Shown piece after piece: positions 1-24,190 of a stretch of 27,987 bases of DNA. Source of the DNA: a virus; the IMG/VR virus record IMGVR_UViG_3300045999_003283, positions 1 through 27,987 of that record; one strand, 5' to 3'. Every line of letters begins with the position of its first letter. The stretch's first letter is position 1. The notes below the pieces were generated by a model. The model had not been told where the DNA came from, did not search any database, and saw only the letters and a list, made by a program, of their open reading frames with translations. The position numbers were made by a program, and so were the translations under genes.

Positions 1-51
1 ATTGAGAACACGACGAATCTGTTCTTCTGTATAAATCTCTTTACTTACCAT
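1..51 (-). CDS. 5' end of an unidentified gene cut by the window edge
   Basis: An ATG at 51-49 opens a frame that stays open for 17 codons to the window edge, reading MVSKEIYTEEQIRRVLN. It overlaps the last codons and stop of the upstream helicase gene. An AAGGA sequence lies about 8 nt upstream of the ATG, inside the helicase reading frame, which is the pattern of a translationally coupled operon gene. The position directly after a replicative helicase suggests another replication or nucleotide-metabolism protein. The fragment is too short to assign a family. Confidence 0.55.
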   Translation of the reverse strand, partial: MVSKEIYTEEQIRRVLN

Positions 52-1264
52 CTTCAAAATCCTTGTAACGATAGTAACCCTTATCAAAGTCACATTGAAC
101 TAAGAAGTCTCCCATAAAACCATTACGGTTCTTTCTAAAAGCACACTCAATAATATCGCTATTACTAGCACGACCCAAAGCCATAACCCAGTCAGCATCA
201 TAGGCAATCTGTCTTGACCATGCTGTTTGTGCAAGTGTAGGAACAGTAGACATATCCTTTACATCGTCAGGTGTAGCAGATGAGATAGCGATAATAGGTA
301 CTTCTTCGCTAATAGCCATTAGCTTTAGTTCACGGGATAGATTCTTCATCTTTACCGTTTCATTATCAGCCTTCTGGTTTGGACTCATCAACTGAAGGTA
401 GTCAACTACAACGAAGTCTGGCTTGTATTGATCTAGTTTTCCACGGATTACAGAAGGTGTTACTTCTCCACCAGAGTCATTTGAAATGATGTGGAATGGT
501 GGACGACCTTCAAGTTTGTTTGTATGCCATTTCTTCATCATGTCAAGTTCAACTTCACCGTTTGATAACTTACGATGTGACCAAAGTCCCTCACCCATAA
601 TTGTGAATACACGGTTGCGAACTTCTGTCTCACTCATTTCAAGAGAGATGATAAGTGGTGTCTTGCCCTGTTTCCAGGCCTGCACAGCAAAGTAGAGAGC
701 CATCCATGACTTTCCAATACCAGGGTATGCCAGAAAGACTCCTAGCTGTCCTGGCATGATTCCAGAAGGTAGATAGTTATCAAACCCTGGCAATCCTGTT
801 TTGATTCCACGTTGTCCAAGAGCTTGCTGCTCTTTAACATTCTCAAAGTATGCAATTGCAGAGTCAAGGTCTGTTGCATCAATGTCACGAATAGAAGATG
901 TATTTTTCTTTAGTGTAGATGTTTTAGTAATAAGATCTTCAAGTGCCTGAACACCTTGTCCACCCTGAACCTCAGTCGCTGCAGATCTTAGAATATCTTT
1001 AAGGCTATCATTTAGGTACTCAGTCTGTAACTCTTCAAGGTGATGCTTAGTTGCACCAACATCCTTAAGGACCTCAAAGTCTCTAAACTTTTCTACTACT
1101 AGAGATGAAGGTGGTACTGTTCCATTGTTCTCAGCATAAAGACGAATGAAGTTCCATACATCGTTATGAGTTCTAAGCAGTGTTTCTACGTTTGCTTGTA
1201 GCAATACATGAAGCTGCTTATCTTGTAATACCGCTGAAATTACCTTAGCTTCTGTATTATTCAC
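41..1264 (-). CDS. DnaB-family replicative DNA helicase
   Basis: This is a 407-residue hexameric-helicase type protein expected to unwind the phage replication fork. Residues 1-120 are a helical N-terminal domain like the DnaB primase-interacting region. Residues 150-400 form the RecA-like core. The Walker A motif is AYPGIGKSW (179-187, K185 and S186), the catalytic-glutamate segment is ISLEMS (E209), and the Walker B motif is FVVVDYLQLM (D288). FRKNRNG near 376-382 looks like the arginine-finger region. The usual LSQLNR-type motif after Walker B reads ISSATPDD (residues 327-334), so the sensor glutamine is missing there. The start is GTG at 1264, with AAGGAG 8 nt upstream, and it overlaps the stop of the previous gene. 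Annotating it as a DnaB-like helicase is secure; whether it loads with a dedicated loader is inference. Confidence 0.93.
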   Translation of the reverse strand: MNNTEAKVISAVLQDKQLHVLLQANVETLLRTHNDVWNFIRLYAENNGTVPPSSLVVEKFRDFEVLKDVGATKHHLEELQTEYLNDSLKDILRSAATEVQGGQGVQALEDLITKTSTLKKNTSSIRDIDATDLDSAIAYFENVKEQQALGQRGIKTGLPGFDNYLPSGIMPGQLGVFLAYPGIGKSWMALYFAVQAWKQGKTPLIISLEMSETEVRNRVFTIMGEGLWSHRKLSNGEVELDMMKKWHTNKLEGRPPFHIISNDSGGEVTPSVIRGKLDQYKPDFVVVDYLQLMSPNQKADNETVKMKNLSRELKLMAISEEVPIIAISSATPDDVKDMSTVPTLAQTAWSRQIAYDADWVMALGRASNSDIIECAFRKNRNGFMGDFLVQCDFDKGYYRYKDFEDGK

Positions 1265-1565
1265 TTAGCCACTCCTTTGCTTTAGCCCTACGTTGTTGTC
1301 TTTCTTTTATATCTTGCTCTACATCTAGTTTACCATTAAGAATTTTTTCTGCATTATAAGCAAAGTAATTCCAGCTTGCTTCTTGTGCAACAGAAAAATA
1401 ATAATCTAGTAAGTCATAGCACTGTGACATGCCATAAGACTCAACAAGTCCATCTGCTGCCCATTGCTCTACGTTTAAGTTAAGAGATGGCTTTTGCCCA
1501 TACTTTGCTGTATGTAATTTTGAGTATCTACTCAGCAAAGCCATACGGTCTTTGCGTTCTGCCAT
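1257..1565 (-). CDS. Small helical protein upstream of DnaB; possible helicase loader or replisome organiser
   Basis: This 102-residue protein has a basic N-terminus (MAERKDRMALL) and a basic C-terminus (KERQQRRAKAKEWLSE) around a central helical, aromatic region (CYDLLDYYF, WNYFAYNAEKIL). Its start codon overlaps the stop of the upstream gene as TAATG, and its own 3' end overlaps the GTG start of the helicase, so the three genes look translationally coupled. Small basic helical proteins directly upstream of a phage DnaB are often loaders or DnaD-like organisers. That role is inferred from position and charge only; I see no diagnostic motif. It could also be a DNA-binding protein of another kind. 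Confidence 0.8.
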   Translation of the reverse strand: MAERKDRMALLSRYSKLHTAKYGQKPSLNLNVEQWAADGLVESYGMSQCYDLLDYYFSVAQEASWNYFAYNAEKILNGKLDVEQDIKERQQRRAKAKEWLSE

Positions 1566-1792
1566 TACTCTGAGATTTCAGACTTTGCTTCTTGAATCTT
1601 CTCAGTTAGCTTATCTTCTACAAACTTATACACACGCTCAAAAGCTTCGTTTGTAGTTTCTCCGTCACGCTTGCTATCTACAATTCCTAGATCAAGTCTT
1701 AGTGACTGAAAGTTACCAAGATTAAGCGTATAGCCTAACGTTACATTTACCTTTGTTGGTTCATTTGTTACTACGTAATTGCTATTTTCCAT
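1565..1792 (-). CDS. Conserved-type small protein of the replication cluster, function unknown
   Basis: This is a 75-residue protein starting MENSNYVVTNEPTKV. An in-frame ATG four codons upstream, at 1804, is possible. The start at 1792 is preferred because a GGGTGGGG block sits 3 nt upstream of it, and the same block precedes another MEN-type gene at 5152. The first half is predicted beta (KVNVTLGYTLNLGNFQSLRLDLGI) and the second half a charged amphipathic helix (EAFERVYKFVEDKLTEKIQEA). Proteins of this general look occur beside DnaB in other actinophage-like genomes, but I know of no established function. It is the first gene after the hairpin and promoter-like boundary at 1829-1872 and is coupled to the next gene by TAATG. 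Confidence 0.82.
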   Translation of the reverse strand: MENSNYVVTNEPTKVNVTLGYTLNLGNFQSLRLDLGIVDSKRDGETTNEAFERVYKFVEDKLTEKIQEAKSEISE

Positions 1793-1802
1793 TACCCCAC
1801 CC
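1785..1802 (-). promoter_or_regulatory. G-rich ribosome-binding block, copy 2
   Basis: Read on the minus strand this is GGGTGGGGTAATGGAAAA, containing the start codon of the small gene that begins at 1792. It differs from the block at 5145-5163 only by one extra A before the ATG in the other copy. It decides the start codon choice for this gene. It is G-rich and not a textbook AGGAGG. Confidence 0.6.
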
Positions 1803-1828
1803 ATTTCATTGTCTTTCGTTATATAGTA

Positions 1829-1837
1829 ATCATATCA
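1829..1837 (-). promoter_or_regulatory. Extended -10 promoter-like box before the replication cluster
   Basis: The minus strand reads TGATATGAT, an extended -10 with a 5/6 match to TATAAT. A weak -35 candidate, TTGCAG, lies exactly 17 nt upstream, within the adjacent hairpin. The box sits about 37 nt upstream of the ATG at 1792. It is the only gap of any size between the tail and replication clusters, so it could start a separate replication transcript. Confidence 0.45.
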
Positions 1838-1890: not shown

Positions 1891-2118
1891 TTATAACCCT
1901 ATCATTTTTTTAGCATTCTCCAATGCTTTTTCTTGAGAATAACCTTTTTGAATATACTGAGATGTAACATCAATAAGCTGATCTTCTTTGGTATCTTCAA
2001 GATTCCATTTAACTGCCATGGTCTTAGAATCTGGACTATTAAAAAAATCAATCTCTTCTTGAGTTAAATCTCTTTCTATTAATTCTTGTAGTTCAACATT
2101 AAATTCTGTTATTTTCAT
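1891..2118 (-). CDS. Small acidic helical protein after the tail fibre, function unknown
   Basis: This 75-residue acidic protein is mostly helical. Its middle reads ERDLTQEEIDFFNSPDSKTM and its C-terminal segment SQEKALENAKKMIGL. It begins one base past the stop of the collagen-like fibre gene; the TAA and the ATG are separated by a single A. A GGGGGG run about 9 nt upstream could serve as a poor ribosome-binding site. It is the last gene of the structural run before the module boundary hairpin. Tail fibre genes are often followed by small chaperones, and that is one possible role, but nothing in the sequence proves it. Confidence 0.75.
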   Translation of the reverse strand: MKITEFNVELQELIERDLTQEEIDFFNSPDSKTMAVKWNLEDTKEDQLIDVTSQYIQKGYSQEKALENAKKMIGL

Positions 2119-2119
2119 T

Positions 2120-3850
2120 TTATGCTACCCCCCATAAATTCCATGTTCCACCTGTCCAGCTTTCTGATACTATTTGAAAGTTAATTGTATTAATTGCAGA
2201 TGCTTGAGTAATTGTTCCTGATCCTTGAAATGTTTGAAAAGAAACTGATGACGAAATATATGATGGCAAAGCACCAGATACTACCATATCCCATTGTTTC
2301 GTTCCAGTACTATTTGCATTTCTTATGTGTAGTTTTCCTGAAGACCATCTATAAGTTAAATTTGGCTCTAATCCGCTTGATGTGCTTATCATATATGTAC
2401 CACTAGTAGGTGTAACATAATCATTTCCTCCAGTAAAACCAGAAGCATTTCCGTTTACCCAGATTCTTGGAGAATTTCCAAGCAGACCATTATTACTAGA
2501 GCAAGTTGCTCCAGACCATGAAAGTATTAGCTCTTTATATGCTCCATTTAATCCAGTGAATGATGAAAAAAAACCTGATGTTGCTTGATATGTTCCAATA
2601 AGTGTCCATGGACCTGTTCCTGCACCAGCAGGACCTGTTTCTCCTGTGTCACCCTTGAGTCCTTGAGGACCTGTTGCTCCAGTGTCGCCTTTAACTCCTT
2701 GAATGCCTTGTAATCCTTGTTCTCCTTGAATACCCTGTAACCCTTGTATTCCTTGAATGCCTTGATCACCAGTATCGCCTTTAGGTCCTTCAATTCCTTG
2801 AATGCCTTGCTCACCCTGAATACCTTGAATTCCTTGGTCGCCAGTATCTCCTTTAGGACCAGGCTCTCCTTGAATTCCCTGTGGTCCTTGAGGACCAACA
2901 GCACCAAGTCTTACAACTACAAAAATAACTGAGTCATTGTTTGAGAAGATGTGTCCACCTTCAATATACTCTACTGGAATTTGGTCATAGCCAGTAAACT
3001 CAGTAGGTGATGCAGTTGCTTCCCACTTTTGATATTGAGAAGAATCTGATTGATTTTGAATAATAAGAATATCACCAGCATCAATAAGATGAAGGAATAA
3101 GTTAACATCGTCACCATCTCTATCAAGATGACTTGCAGAAAGAATAGTTCCATCAATTTGTCCAGCTGTATTCCAAATACCATGACCTGATCCAGGGTCT
3201 CCAGTAGTAGTTGTTGTTTTTACTGTGTAAGGGAAAAATGCAGAGGAACCCCCGTCGGCACCAGCAGGCCCTGTATCGCCAGTGTCTCCTTTATCCCCTT
3301 TATCGCCTTTTTCTCCTTGAATTCCTTGTTCGCCTTGAATACCCTGAATACCTTGAGGACCTTGATCACCAGTGTCGCCTTTAGGTCCTTGAACACCTTG
3401 TTCTCCTTGTATGCCCTGAGTACCCTGATCACCAGTATTTCCTTTTTCTCCCTGGATGCCCTGCTCACCTTGAACACCTTGTGATCCAGTATCTCCTTTA
3501 TCACCTTTAATACCTTGAGAACCAGTATCTCCTTTTGGAATAGTAAAATTTAAAACAACATTGCTAGATGTTCCAGAGTTTGTTACAGAAGCTGATGTGC
3601 CAGCATTGCCAGTTGTTGTTGATCCAACGGTAATGGTTGCTGCAGCATCACCTTTATCACCTTTAGGTCCTTGAATACTTTGACCAGATGAGAGCTCAAT
3701 AATTCCACTAGCCTGATATATATCTATGCTATTGCTATTTTGCACAACAACATTTGTTATTGAGTTTGCTGGTAATACCTCAACCACTAAATTGTTACTG
3801 TGAACATCTAAAATTACTGGGGTATTATTTATATTGACAATATCTGTCAT
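2120..3850 (-). CDS. Collagen-like tail fibre protein
   Basis: This 576-residue fibre protein has four parts. Residues 1-60 form a short beta N-terminus, followed by a mini Gly-X-Y stretch (61-69). Gly-X-Y block 1 covers about 107-201 and block 2 about 316-411, both dominated by GDTGDQG, GIQGEQG and GPKGDTG triplets. The insert at 202-315 and the C-terminal domain at 412-576 are globular and beta-rich. Gly-X-Y repeats in phage fibres form trimeric collagen-like stalks, and the C-terminal domain ([14 protein letters not shown]...TWNLWGVA) is the likely receptor-binding head. It overlaps the preceding gene by ATGA and has AGGT upstream of the ATG. The fibre probably attaches through its N-terminus, or through the preceding small protein, to the tail tip. 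Confidence 0.9.
2618..2905 (-). repeat. Gly-X-Y coding repeat block 2
   Basis: About 32 consecutive Gly-X-Y triplets of the fibre gene (residues 316-411) are coded here by near-repeating 9-bp units. The block resembles 3248-3532 at DNA level. This makes slippage or recombination between the blocks plausible. Confidence 0.85.
3248..3532 (-). repeat. Gly-X-Y coding repeat block 1
   Basis: About 31 Gly-X-Y triplets (residues 107-201) of the fibre gene are encoded here. They use the same GDTGDQG, GIQGEQG and GPKGDTG units as block 2. A globular segment of about 114 residues separates the two blocks. Confidence 0.85.
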
Positions 3851-4191
3851 CTAGTTACCTGTGGGGTTACAGTTATGCGACCCTGAACAAGACGTGTTAC
3901 TACTGATGAAGATGTTATTTCAAGGTCATATACGTATTCACCTGCTGTAAGTGCTCCAGTCTGCGTTGCAGTGGCTGTAACAGCTATAGTTCCAGCTGTT
4001 CCACCTAATACTATTCCACTTCCAGAGGTTAGTGATAGAGCAGCAGATGCAGCATCATAGCTTGTTCTAAGTTGGAGTGCTGCAGTGTATCCAGTAAGGT
4101 TGATTGGAGAACCATCAGAATTTTTATAGGTAAATGTAATATTCCAGGTTGCTCCTTGATCAATTATCAGGTTTGTAGTTGCTGCACTCAT
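3847..4191 (-). CDS. Small beta-sandwich tail protein, BppU-N-like
   Basis: This 114-residue, all-beta protein begins [20 protein letters not shown] and continues [20 protein letters not shown], a pattern typical of the N-terminal domain of the BppU baseplate upper protein and of many small minor tail proteins. The C-terminal part ([31 protein letters not shown]) completes the usual fold. In related phages this domain links receptor-binding fibres to the baseplate, and here it lies directly before the collagen-like fibre with an ATGA overlap. TAGGAG sits 7 nt upstream of the ATG. An extended -10 box at 4248-4256 may start transcription of this gene and the fibre. Confidence 0.8.
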
Positions 4192-4247: not shown

Positions 4248-4256
4248 ATTATATCA
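4248..4256 (-). promoter_or_regulatory. Extended -10 promoter-like box before the fibre genes
   Basis: The minus strand reads TGATATAAT, a perfect -10 hexamer with the TGn extension. No convincing -35 is visible. It lies in the 75-bp gap between the HTH protein gene and the BppU-like gene, giving a predicted leader of about 50 nt. Confidence 0.5.
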
Positions 4257-4266
4257 TAGAATAGAT

Positions 4267-4809
4267 CTATACCGTTTCGTTCCAAATAGGTATAAATCTA
4301 CCGTCTTCTGTTCTGGTATATGTAAGTATACCGTCTCCCATGCGCCTTGTCAACTCTTGGCTTGTAGGTGTCATATTATTTGTTACCAGTTTATCTTTTC
4401 TTGGTTGACCTATGTGTATGCTTGCAAGAATAGCACGTATTTCCCTAACATGTGATTCAGAATAGTAGGATCTTACTTGCCAAGCCCTTTCGCCATTTAG
4501 CTTTGCACCGATTGGTGGGGGTATAACTCCTCGTTTAATTAAGCTTGGTATATACTTTCTATGCCTATTGACAAGCTGTGCAGTTTCTGATACACTATAT
4601 GCACGTTCACGATTTTTTTTAAAATCAGCAAGTAAGCATGTTTCTAAACGATCTTTAGTTATATTATAAAATGTAACCATACCAGTAGAACGAGAACTAT
4701 GGTATACCTTAACAAGATCACCATTGACAAACCATACCTTAACCTTACCCTTAATTACAGGTTCGTGATTGTATGCTTGGCTCTGGATTTTTCCTTTTGA
4801 AGTATCCAT
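4267..4809 (-). CDS. HTH DNA-binding protein, MerR/excisionase-like
   Basis: In this 180-residue protein, residues 68-115 (RAYSVSETAQLVNRHRKYIP to GERAWQVRSYY) look like a MerR- or excisionase-type winged HTH: a helix-turn-helix followed by a short wing ending in a tryptophan segment. The N-terminus (GKVKVWFVNGDLVKVYHSS) is a small beta domain. This points to a transcription regulator or DNA-architecture protein acting in the host cytoplasm. The start at 4809 is supported by AAAGAGGGA just upstream and gives a 55-bp overlap with the zinc-ribbon gene in a different frame. Its position inside a tail module is unusual for a regulator; late-gene control or moron-like expression are options. Confidence 0.78.
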   Translation of the reverse strand: MDTSKGKIQSQAYNHEPVIKGKVKVWFVNGDLVKVYHSSRSTGMVTFYNITKDRLETCLLADFKKNRERAYSVSETAQLVNRHRKYIPSLIKRGVIPPPIGAKLNGERAWQVRSYYSESHVREIRAILASIHIGQPRKDKLVTNNMTPTSQELTRRMGDGILTYTRTEDGRFIPIWNETV

Positions 4810-4946
4810 GTTCCCTCTTTAGTTGCTGAAGGTGGGTGATAAAATACTCTATTCCCACAAGAAATGCAAGATGTCTCTATATGGTCAACAGTTGTATACT
4901 GTCTATCTACAAAAACACGCCCACTGCATCTATTACAACTTAACAT
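4755..4946 (-). CDS. Small zinc-ribbon protein
   Basis: This 63-residue protein carries two CxxC knuckles, C4-x2-C7 and C27-x2-C30, spaced as in a zinc ribbon, with a basic, lysine-rich C-terminus. Such proteins bind nucleic acid or RNA polymerase; the exact target cannot be read from sequence. The start has AAAGGAAAT just upstream. Its last 55 bases overlap the start of the HTH gene, so the two are probably translated together and may act together. Confidence 0.82.
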   Translation of the reverse strand: MLSCNRCSGRVFVDRQYTTVDHIETSCISCGNRVFYHPPSATKEGTWILQKEKSRAKHTITNL

Positions 4947-4954
4947 TATTTCCT

Positions 4955-5152
4955 TTAGGTTGACTTCTGCTTAGAAGTTTTTTCTTCAAGATTTTTAGAA
5001 TATTCTTCTGCTGCTTTTTTCTTCTCTTCTTGTTCTTGAGAGTATTGAGTAATCTCAGCCCTCAGTATTGCTACTTGTGTTTCATAGTTTGAAACAAGTT
5101 CGCCAATTCTTTGCTGTAAAGCCATAATAATTAGTTCTGCTTTGTTTTCCAT
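4955..5152 (-). CDS. Small coiled-coil protein, function unknown
   Basis: This 65-residue protein starts MENKAELIIMALQQRIGELV and continues as one long charged helix with a Glu/Lys-rich C-terminus (EQEEKKKAAEEYSKNLEEK). Heptad-like hydrophobics at the start suggest a coiled coil. Similar short proteins are common in actinophage-like genomes, without known function. Its start lies in the G-rich block GGGTGGGGTAA shared with the gene at 1792. It is one of three consecutive tiny helical genes. Confidence 0.82.
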   Translation of the reverse strand: MENKAELIIMALQQRIGELVSNYETQVAILRAEITQYSQEQEEKKKAAEEYSKNLEEKTSKQKST

Positions 5153-5163
5153 TTACCCCACCC
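5145..5163 (-). promoter_or_regulatory. G-rich ribosome-binding block, copy 1
   Basis: The minus strand reads GGGTGGGGTAAATGGAAAA, covering the ribosome-binding region and the first codons of the coiled-coil gene. It is nearly identical to 1785-1802, although the two downstream proteins are otherwise unrelated. Confidence 0.6.
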
Positions 5164-5172
5164 TTTATATTT

Positions 5173-5388
5173 TTATGCTAAAGAATCTAGCTCATCTTGC
5201 AAAACTTGTTTTTTTGCTAATGAGTCTGATAATTGATTATTTAAAGATAAAATATTTTCTGAATTTGGAGTTGTAACTGCTTGCGCCTCTGCCAAACTTA
5301 AAATTAAATTATACTCTGAATAAGCAATATTCTTTAGATGCTGCTGTATAATTGCAGTCTTTTCTTCTACTGTTAGCTCTACTGTCAT
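5173..5388 (-). CDS. Tiny helical protein, possible paralogue of its neighbour
   Basis: This is a 71-residue all-helical protein (MTVELTVEEKTAIIQQHLKN...). Like the next upstream gene it begins MT, has an EEK near residue 8, a central Leu/Ile-rich helix, an Asn/Ser-rich turn and a final amphipathic helix ending near L-x-SL. Similarity is weak and seen only by eye, so common ancestry is possible but unproven. AAGGAGG lies 6 nt before the ATG, one of the best ribosome-binding sites in the window, and a TGATATACT box lies just upstream of that. Strong initiation suggests an abundant small protein. Function is unknown. Confidence 0.8.
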   Translation of the reverse strand: MTVELTVEEKTAIIQQHLKNIAYSEYNLILSLAEAQAVTTPNSENILSLNNQLSDSLAKKQVLQDELDSLA

Positions 5389-5404
5389 TTTTTCCTCCTT
5401 ATAT

Positions 5405-5413
5405 AGTATATCA
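5405..5413 (-). promoter_or_regulatory. Extended -10 promoter-like box
   Basis: The minus strand reads TGATATACT (5/6 match to TATAAT plus TGn). It ends about 16 nt before the ATG at 5388, and AAGGAGG follows directly, so the leader would be very short. It lies in the small gap between two tiny genes. Confidence 0.4.
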
Positions 5414-5417
5414 TATA

Positions 5418-5624
5418 TTAGCCTTCTATCAAACTGTTTAATGTCTCTTTTAAGGCATAAATTGCTTGCTCTCTGTCTAATATATCTTGTGTAACCTGCT
5501 CAACCTTGCTGCTATTAGAAGATATCAGTATATCAAGGTTGATTTTTTCTAAAGATAGGAATGATTCATAAAAATCTATTCTCTTTCTTAGAAATTCTAT
5601 TTTTTCCTCATTATTTATTGTCAT
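5418..5624 (-). CDS. Tiny helical protein after the Ig-domain fibre gene
   Basis: This 68-residue helical protein (MTINNEEKIEFLRKRIDFYE...) has two predicted amphipathic helices around an SSNSSK turn. Its ribosome-binding site, TTAAGGAAA, overlaps the TAA stop of the large upstream fibre gene, so it is probably translated by coupling. It may be a paralogue of the following gene. Candidate roles are fibre chaperone or small accessory protein; nothing in the sequence decides. Confidence 0.78.
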   Translation of the reverse strand: MTINNEEKIEFLRKRIDFYESFLSLEKINLDILISSNSSKVEQVTQDILDREQAIYALKETLNSLIEG

Positions 5625-23116: not shown

Positions 23117-23446
23117 TTATTCATCTGCATTACTGGCGAAAAGTGTTGCTGCTTCAGAAATTGGAACTCCTGATGCTACTTCAACAATCTTATACACAGT
23201 AGGCAAATCAATATTCTCTTCCAGTGCAGCAATATCTGATGCTAGCTCTGGCTTATATTGTTCCATTGCGATTAGTACACATTCCATAAGTAGATTAATT
23301 GACTTCTCGTTGTCATCTACTACCTCTGCAATACCCTCAAACTTTTTCATAAACTTTCGTAAAAGTGAAATCTTAAGCGGTCTTAGAGTAATTTCTGTAC
23401 CATCAATTAGCTTAATCTGTTGTGATTCATAAACAGTTGTTGCCAT
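23117..23446 (-). CDS. Tail assembly chaperone, G-only paralogue
   Basis: This 109-residue protein aligns end to end with residues 1-96 of the previous gene product: MAT start, DGTEI, PLKI..LR.FM, LL.EC..IAM.QY.P and NIDLPTV are shared, roughly 45-50% identity by eye. In siphoviruses the G domain coats the tape measure and the T domain recruits tail tube subunits; this copy keeps only G. Its ribosome-binding site is strong (GGGAGGG, 6 nt before ATG), and an extended -10 box overlaps the stop of the fusion gene. It probably supplies extra G without T. It sits 24 bp before the tape measure gene. Confidence 0.88.
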   Translation of the reverse strand: MATTVYESQQIKLIDGTEITLRPLKISLLRKFMKKFEGIAEVVDDNEKSINLLMECVLIAMEQYKPELASDIAALEENIDLPTVYKIVEVASGVPISEAATLFASNADE

Positions 23447-23472
23447 GTTGATCCCTCCCTAGGTTTGTATCA

Positions 23473-23481
23473 ATTATACCA
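23473..23481 (-). promoter_or_regulatory. Extended -10 box overlapping the fusion-chaperone stop
   Basis: The minus strand reads TGGTATAATTGA. The TATAA includes the TAA stop of the upstream chaperone gene. A start about 7 nt downstream would leave a leader of some 23 nt with GGGAGGG for the G-only chaperone. No good -35 is seen. Confidence 0.5.
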
Positions 23482-24190
23482 TGAGAGAGGGGTCTCTTGC
23501 GTCTTCATAATCAAGACCCATACCAATCCCAAACCCTGCTTTCTTAGCATTTTGTCCCTGTAATGCAAGCACATCATTACTATCTTTTGTTGCACCACCA
23601 CTAAACACTCTTGCTTTAAGATTTTCCCATTCTTTTTGACCACGCTCTTCATTGTTAGAGTCTTCAAGATCAACACCTTGTATTGCTGCAAAGAACTTTT
23701 TTTCTTGATAATCTAATTCTCTTTTGCTAGATATAATTGCCATTATTTCTGATAGAGATAATGACTCTTCTAGCTCAGAATAATCCTTCCATATACCAAG
23801 CAAAAATACCTCAGACTCTAACTTGGCTAAGTCAAAATCTTCCCATGATGGTCCTGGATCTCCCTTTTGAGCTTGTGTCTTTACGTCTTCCTGTGAGTTT
23901 TCACCAACTTTAATATTTCCAGCTATTTCTAAAATCTCATGAACTGTTGGCAAATCAATATTATCTTCTAGATCTTCTATGCTTTTAGATATTGATGGAT
24001 AATATTGTTTCATAGCTATTCTTGTGCATTCTAGCAAAACCATCATGGCTTCGTCATCATCTGTTGTATATTTAATCTTATCAAAAGCATCCATGAACTC
24101 TCTAAGATACTTAATCTTAAGAGGCATTGTTTGTATCTCTGTACCGTCAAATAAATAAATATTTTTGGTTTTATATATTGATGTAGCCAT
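23474..24190 (-). CDS. Tail assembly chaperone, in-frame G-T fusion
   Basis: This is a 238-residue protein. Residues 1-96 form a G domain homologous to the next gene. Residues 97-115 form a linker, and 116-238 a T-like domain with SWEDFDLAKLE, YSELEESLSLSEI, QGVDLE and the end motif LALQGQNAKKAGFGIGMGLDY typical of actinophage chaperones. In most siphoviruses GT is made by a programmed frameshift from G; here the two are one open frame with no slippery site visible at the linker. The protein should link the tape measure to the major tail protein during assembly. There is no ribosome-binding site upstream of the ATG. A TGGTAAACT box 10 nt upstream suggests a leaderless transcript. The start is fixed by homology to the paralogue. 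Confidence 0.9.
   Translation of the reverse strand: MATSIYKTKNIYLFDGTEIQTMPLKIKYLREFMDAFDKIKYTTDDDEAMMVLLECTRIAMKQYYPSISKSIEDLEDNIDLPTVHEILEIAGNIKVGENSQEDVKTQAQKGDPGPSWEDFDLAKLESEVFLLGIWKDYSELEESLSLSEIMAIISSKRELDYQEKKFFAAIQGVDLEDSNNEERGQKEWENLKARVFSGGATKDSNDVLALQGQNAKKAGFGIGMGLDYEDARDPSLMV

Follow-up and report, generated by a model that had tools for sequence, protein, structure and literature searches.

The window, that is, the whole 27,987-nucleotide stretch that was analysed (IMG/VR record IMGVR_UViG_3300045999_003283), is a viral record of its own and probably a fragment of a larger genome, with relatives of up to 108 kb. Five minus-strand ORFs, comprising three small helical genes, a zinc-ribbon gene (ZnR) and a helix-turn-helix gene (HTH), form a cluster between the fibre genes. 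All five were confirmed as real at the coordinates of the first-pass annotation, as was its overlap of exactly 55 bp between ZnR and HTH (4755-4809). The cluster and its surroundings contain the following features.

5418-5624, minus strand: first helical gene, 68 aa, fast-evolving, directly behind the last large fibre gene
5405-5413, minus strand: extended -10 box TGATATACT between helical genes 1 and 2, putative transcript start for helical genes 2 and 3, ZnR and HTH
5173-5388, minus strand: second helical gene, 71 aa, in tandem with the third also in distant relatives
4955-5152, minus strand: third helical gene, 65 aa, phrog_10610 (5e-5), next to ZnR only in close relatives
4755-4946, minus strand: ZnR gene, 63 aa, CxxC...CxxC (C4, C7, C27, C30), conserved GRVFxDR, phrog_12850
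4755-4809, minus strand: ZnR/HTH dual-coding overlap, 55 bp
4267-4809, minus strand: HTH gene, 180 aa, with SH3/Tudor-like barrel (residues 23-71), MerR-like winged helix (residues 68-134) and small C-terminal domain, phrog_9440
4427-4435, minus strand: second conserved element in HTH resembling an extended -10, reading TGCTATACT in about 98 of the 106 relatives and TGCTATTCT in the window
4325-4353, minus strand: predicted promoter embedded in the HTH ORF, TTGACA (4353-4348), 17-nt spacer, TATACT (4330-4325), directed at the fibre cassette and replication genes
4316-4331, no strand assigned: inverted repeat GTATA-N6-TATAC covering the embedded promoter's -10, one copy per genome in the window and two relatives, candidate operator
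4248-4256, minus strand: extended -10 box TGATATAAT just past the HTH stop, at the head of the cassette, identical in all four cassette carriers
1891-4191, minus strand: inserted fibre cassette, with LtfC-like gene (3847-4191), collagen-like fibre (2120-3850) and small gene (1891-2118)
1829-1837, minus strand: TGATATGAT box ahead of g1565, present where a cassette is inserted (four loci)
1565-1804, minus strand: g1565, 79 aa, phrog_5189, conserved, replication block
1257-1565, minus strand: g1257, 102 aa, phrog_11101 (unknown function), model resembling the SPP1 G39P helicase loader
41-1264, minus strand: DnaB-type replicative helicase, PF03796 (1.2e-29)

Chance ORFs were ruled out by the PHROG matches, by close HTH relatives encoded on 155 viral contigs and by the constraint in the overlap. 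There, synonymous variation fell to ~0.3 of expectation in both frames, as dual coding predicts, and both frames are therefore read. ZnR matched phrog_12850 over its full length (1.3e-12) with two CxxC knuckles, and its four cysteines were invariant in 22 diverse aligned members; against the PDB it gave only a weak match, to the 49-aa uncharacterised protein 2nb9 (0.0079). HTH matched phrog_9440 at 8.5e-22, residues 24-178 aligning to profile positions 9-163 of 166. Both families, as well as phrog_10610, are without known function. A Shine-Dalgarno-like GAGG precedes the HTH ATG, which most relatives have at the same position, and inspection revealed no canonical slippery heptamer, so that a frameshift fusion of the two products was judged unnecessary.

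The structural model of HTH was of middling quality (mean pLDDT 75.5, with lower confidence beyond residue 130) and showed a barrel ahead of the wing, a helix at 118-130 and a small alpha/beta C-terminus. Fold alignment identified residues 68-134 as a MerR-type wing at a Z of about 6 (Z 5-6); Foldseek with the model returned no match below 0.001, so the fold names are provisional, and a PDB sequence search with the HTH profile yielded nothing credible. HTH_17 matched 8 of 29 family members (best 1.5e-6) and MerR one of the 29 at 0.004, and the window protein scored 12.9 bits against the MerR Pfam models (PF13411/PF00376), under the 21.6-bit cut-off. The HTH_17 matches support a DNA-binding domain in HTH. 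The earlier regulatory reading of the cluster is retained to this extent, with a product of DNA-binding type (MerR/HTH_17-like) for which phage gene control is plausible; its cargo and tail-module components are not. A defence system was rejected, the sole PADLOC match being a bare HTH model (0.0013).

When the window proteins were mapped onto relatives, the order ZnR-HTH-g1565-g1257-DnaB was constant. Among 130 loci with distinct HTH genes, ZnR adjoined HTH in 128 and the overlap measured 55 nt in 107, and DnaB lay downstream of HTH in all 77 loci long enough to tell, followed in relatives by primase, SSB and polymerase. The gap between HTH and g1565 was ≤60 bp in 102 loci, 60-500 bp in 23 (Streptomyces-like clades) and >500 bp in 4. 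An HTH profile search gave at least 586 relatives among the 600 candidate stretches listed. Both genes occurred in 127 Streptomyces phage records (Stanwilliamsviridae, cluster BE), with TunaTartare, BillNye and Yaboi showing tail genes, phosphoesterase, holin or membrane protein, ZnR, HTH, small genes, DnaB, primase, SSB and DNA polymerase III in succession. The ZnR gene is unannotated in several of the Stanwilliamsviridae records (for example, TunaTartare L082:11816-12004), and the annotated HTH start of BillNye (46547) is apparently too late, as the open frame and conserved region begin upstream. Another carrier is MindFlayer, a Streptomyces phage and the helper of a satellite phage. Its HTH family member is gp72 (MW291014). 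More distant queries reached seven Rhodococcus phages; Rhodococcus phage Weasels2 has, behind its HTH homologue, a g1565-like gene, then a gene at the place of g1257 and then DnaB, and no recognisable ZnR was found among its ORFs. The related Rhodococcus phages are not mentioned in the Rhodococcus WC1 transcriptome paper (PMC10986025), and the cultured Nanopelagicales phages E7 and F5 (39 kb) form a different group (PMC10202952). Five of six large freshwater relatives carry WhiB genes, in agreement with actinobacterial hosts.

These comparisons do not support the proposal that the pair is accessory cargo. HTH was 77-94% identical across freshwater relatives, compared with mostly 22-60% for the fibres, and no HTH relative was found in the bacterial genome contigs searched with one peptide pattern. 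It was conserved like the replication proteins, unlike the tail genes of the same loci. ZnR and HTH showed no significant similarity to structural families, and their conservation followed DnaB rather than the fibres. A cargo or moron reading was accordingly rejected, the pair being core and syntenic.

The helical genes belong to the other side of the boundary and evolve fast, with identities of 38-69% for the second and 57-92% for the third among the freshwater relatives in which they were found. About 29 loci have the third directly next to ZnR (23 fell within the set limit and 6 had shorter copies), and in another large clade a 146-147-aa protein holds that position next to ZnR. In Streptomyces-like clades the third helical gene stands apart from ZnR, 1.2-3.3 kb upstream and just behind the last of the tail genes, with lysis-type genes in the interval. 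The helical genes are most likely small tail-end proteins. Because the two blocks are separable across loci, the suggestion that all five genes move together could not be upheld. Nor is the cluster embedded in a tail-fibre module: it is the junction of the tail genes with the DNA-copying genes, at which the helical trio closes the tail module and ZnR-HTH opens the replication module, the fibre cassette beyond being an insert. Elsewhere on the tail side, two tandem genes with similar N-terminal halves (LxDGTEI...PLKI...) lie at 23117-23446 and 23474-24190, just before the tape measure; the pair (23117-24190) is in the position of the tail assembly chaperones, but consists of two separate genes.

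The collagen-like fibre, rather than ZnR/HTH, is the inserted element, because g1565 is distant from HTH only in the four loci that carry an LtfC-like gene. These carriers (4 of 129 loci) hold different inserts of fibre type, 0.75-5 kb in size (window 1891-4191, L002:5391-10385, L029:8540-11209 and L031:8540-9316). In all four, TGATATAATTTA follows the HTH stop and TGCTATGATTAG or TGATATGATTAC precedes g1565, where it may offer the replication genes a second promoter. The -35 of the embedded promoter was lost in 2 of the 4 carriers compared with 3 of 102 others (Fisher p = 0.010, a post hoc comparison of small numbers). The HTH/g1565 junction thus resembles a site at which exchangeable fibre genes enter. 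Between the cassette and g1565, the window also contains a hairpin, ATGCTGC...GCAGCAT (1848-1871), which lacks a clear T run and is possibly a terminator.

The strongest promoter of the window (4325-4353) had been missed by the first-pass annotation. It is spelled by HTH codons 153-162 as TTGACA-N17-TATACT, and codons 153-154 (TTG ACA) and 160-162 (GGT ATA CTT) were nearly invariant among 106 distinct genes, with several intervening codons varying. The exact form TTGACA-17-TATAMT was present in 101 of these 106. In the five genes tested, no stretch was under stronger synonymous constraint than HTH codons 159-169, which exceeded even the dual-coding overlap. The window contained a single perfect sigma-70 promoter, this one (0.02 expected). 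Across 107 freshwater loci, 102 of 103 perfect coding-strand promoters lay inside HTH, with one elsewhere in 548 kb of the structural side and none in 447 kb of the replication side. Two ~108-kb relatives contained 9 and 8 perfect promoters against expectations of 0.6 and 0.2; in each, one was inside HTH and all others lay outside the structural genes. The embedded sigma-70 promoter is thus well supported as a sequence and is predicted to be active. The site is less widely conserved than the protein: the Streptomyces-like clades showed no embedded promoter of comparable clarity, and their weak TTGAC-type matches, located 78-90 bp beyond HTH, may be coding coincidences.

The constraint extends beyond the -10 through ACA TAT AC, making GTATA-N6-TATAC. 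This inverted repeat was found in single copy in the window and in each of the two ~108-kb relatives (0.0, 0.1 and 0.2 expected), in every case at this promoter, where it overlaps a TATA-type sequence that is itself partly self-complementary. An inverted repeat over the -10 is typical of repressor sites. Both promoter-like boxes said to bracket the cluster were real (TGATATACT at 5413-5405 and TGATATAAT at 4256-4248), but the first sits inside it, between helical genes 1 and 2. Nor are such boxes confined to the cluster: TGNTATAMT recurs across the phage as a promoter motif, with 8 occurrences in the window vs 4.5 expected and 36 vs 15 and 45 vs 17 in the two ~108-kb relatives. In G001 and G002 (L185-L196) the motif reached 2.4-2.6 times expectation and was mostly intergenic, often ~15 bp before a start codon, a spacing suggesting leaderless transcripts. 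The structural genes had extended -10 boxes only, without a -35. In 78 of 103 freshwater relatives a counterpart of the TGATATACT box preceded ZnR by 430-490 bp (~1% for a random interval of about that size), and we infer that the box upstream of ZnR starts a transcript carrying ZnR-HTH. No convincing terminator was found from helical gene 3 to HTH.

The explanation we favour, as a tentative first choice, is that the junction also acts as a switch, the HTH product binding the repeat and damping the replication promoter in its own gene. Transcription of ZnR and HTH would start upstream, at the extended -10 promoter that precedes helical gene 2 (or at the counterpart), and the sigma-70 promoter at the 3' end of HTH would fire into the replication genes independently of that transcription. 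Most likely as a dimer, the HTH protein would bind GTATA-N6-TATAC over the -10. As the upstream operon is expressed, HTH would then damp the replication promoter, giving a negative-feedback timer that couples tail-operon expression to replication-operon output, with ZnR as a putative co-translated partner. In this phage, a fibre cassette with its own putative promoters has been inserted between the embedded promoter and the replication genes. The boxes and -35 losses seen in the four cassette carriers agree with this picture. One point against binding of HTH at the repeat is that the usual target of MerR-type activators is the -35/-10 spacer and not the -10 itself. A fuller version, in which the HTH ORF is at once the promoter of the replication operon and the operator for its own product, while the upstream transcript reads through the promoter and supplies the damping protein, seems to us doubtful; a bolder form would have the promoter also prime the replication origin.

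The main alternative, which we consider unlikely, is that HTH is a replication initiator that binds the origin and, with the loader g1257, delivers DnaB in the manner of SPP1 gp38-gp39-gp40, the conserved element in HTH being part of the origin and its promoter possibly priming replication. The constant linkage to DnaB favours it, and so does the model of g1257 (pLDDT 92). A G39P-like loader had been suspected from the sequence and position of g1257 ahead of the structure search, whose best match was G39P itself (1no1; Z 7.4, 66 of 67 residues, rmsd 2.2); the runner-up, at Z 5.2, trailed it by more than 2 Z. The Foldseek E was only 9 and the Z is below 8, and assignment of g1257 as an SPP1 G39P-like helicase loader is provisional; like G39P, g1257 is encoded immediately ahead of DnaB, an adjacency conserved in freshwater as well as Streptomyces phages. 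Gene 38 of SPP1, which serves in origin binding, comes ahead of genes 39 and 40 and contains oriL (PMC6316719); HTH, similarly, stands two genes upstream of g1257. However, iteron-like direct repeats (repeated 9-mers) in ZnR-HTH-g1565 were not above shuffles in 10 relatives, which leaves room for degenerate repeats or an origin elsewhere, and the constrained element has the anatomy of a promoter, with hexamers and a variable 17-nt spacer. GC skew followed the coding strand and marked no clear origin, and per-gene skews in the window were likewise undecided.

Less likely still are roles in late activation or in packaging and the virion. HTH, with ZnR, could activate late genes if extended -10 promoters lacking a -35 need help, for instance from an SH3/Tudor-like domain docking RNA polymerase in the fashion of CarD, but this is improbable. 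The promoter classes of the structural genes would suit it, as would the exclusion of perfect promoters (the HTH one excepted) from structural genes in the two relatives, and the N-terminal barrel (residues 23-71) aligned to Tudor/KOW folds and CarD (Z 5.4, rmsd 8.1). Yet extended -10 promoters need no activator as such, HTH itself is apparently on an extended -10 transcript, no common motif was seen by inspection upstream of the -10 boxes, and SH3-like barrels are common, a Z under 8 not being diagnostic. The conserved promoter within HTH points to control of the replication operon rather than of late transcription. That ZnR and HTH are late proteins linked to packaging, virion or lysis (for example, small-terminase-like DNA-binding proteins), with a merely historical place before DnaB, is very improbable: they are co-oriented with tail and lysis genes and come right after the holin in Streptomyces phages, BillNye has no annotated small terminase, and lambda Nu1, with its MerR/Xis-like winged helix, offers a parallel, but the pair is linked to replication genes, far from the head genes, and HTH is conserved accordingly.

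Stanwilliamsviridae and their many freshwater relatives are common, yet we came across no published description of the timing of replication relative to virion production in these phages. The preferred explanation, repression of the embedded promoter by HTH, names one DNA site and one protein that could time replication, in a pair annotated only as "HTH" or "hypothetical". If true, the self-regulating HTH ORF would be a compact timer of the shift from replication to virions in large actinophages. The fibre cassette inserted alongside explains why regulators seemed to lie among tail genes and marks the junction as a place of entry for fibre genes, and a name can be offered for an unannotated helicase loader (g1257).

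The closest known counterparts are the phrog_9440 proteins of Streptomyces cluster BE (Stanwilliamsviridae), such as TunaTartare gp50 and BillNye gp183, which are homologous to HTH over 85-88% of the length at 30-35% identity and have the same neighbours, holin or ZnR upstream and DnaB downstream. They differ in an extra gene between HTH and the g1565 homologue, in the holin and phosphoesterase that precede ZnR and in having no equally clear embedded promoter. ZnR corresponds in full length and in its four invariant cysteines to phrog_12850, often unannotated in Streptomyces records, and it shares 55 bp with HTH in the freshwater clade but fewer in the others. The SPP1 genes 38-39-40 share the arrangement of a DNA-binding gene, a G39P-like loader and DnaB on one strand, with a functional DNA element, here predicted, within the first gene. 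In position, HTH corresponds to gene 38, as the gene beside DnaB models as a G39P-like loader; here, g1565 is additionally present between, and the internal element is a promoter with an inverted repeat, not iterons with an AT-rich unwinding element. The MerR regulators HiNmlR, CadR and TipAL and BldC-type HTH proteins resemble HTH in the winged helix and through the HTH_17/MerR matches of family members, whereas the wing of HTH is not N-terminal, no effector-binding C-terminus was seen and an SH3/Tudor-like barrel stands in front. The gene families were thus already known, though unnamed; the new points are their position at the front of the replication block, the promoter and repeat in HTH, the loader assignment and the cassette site.
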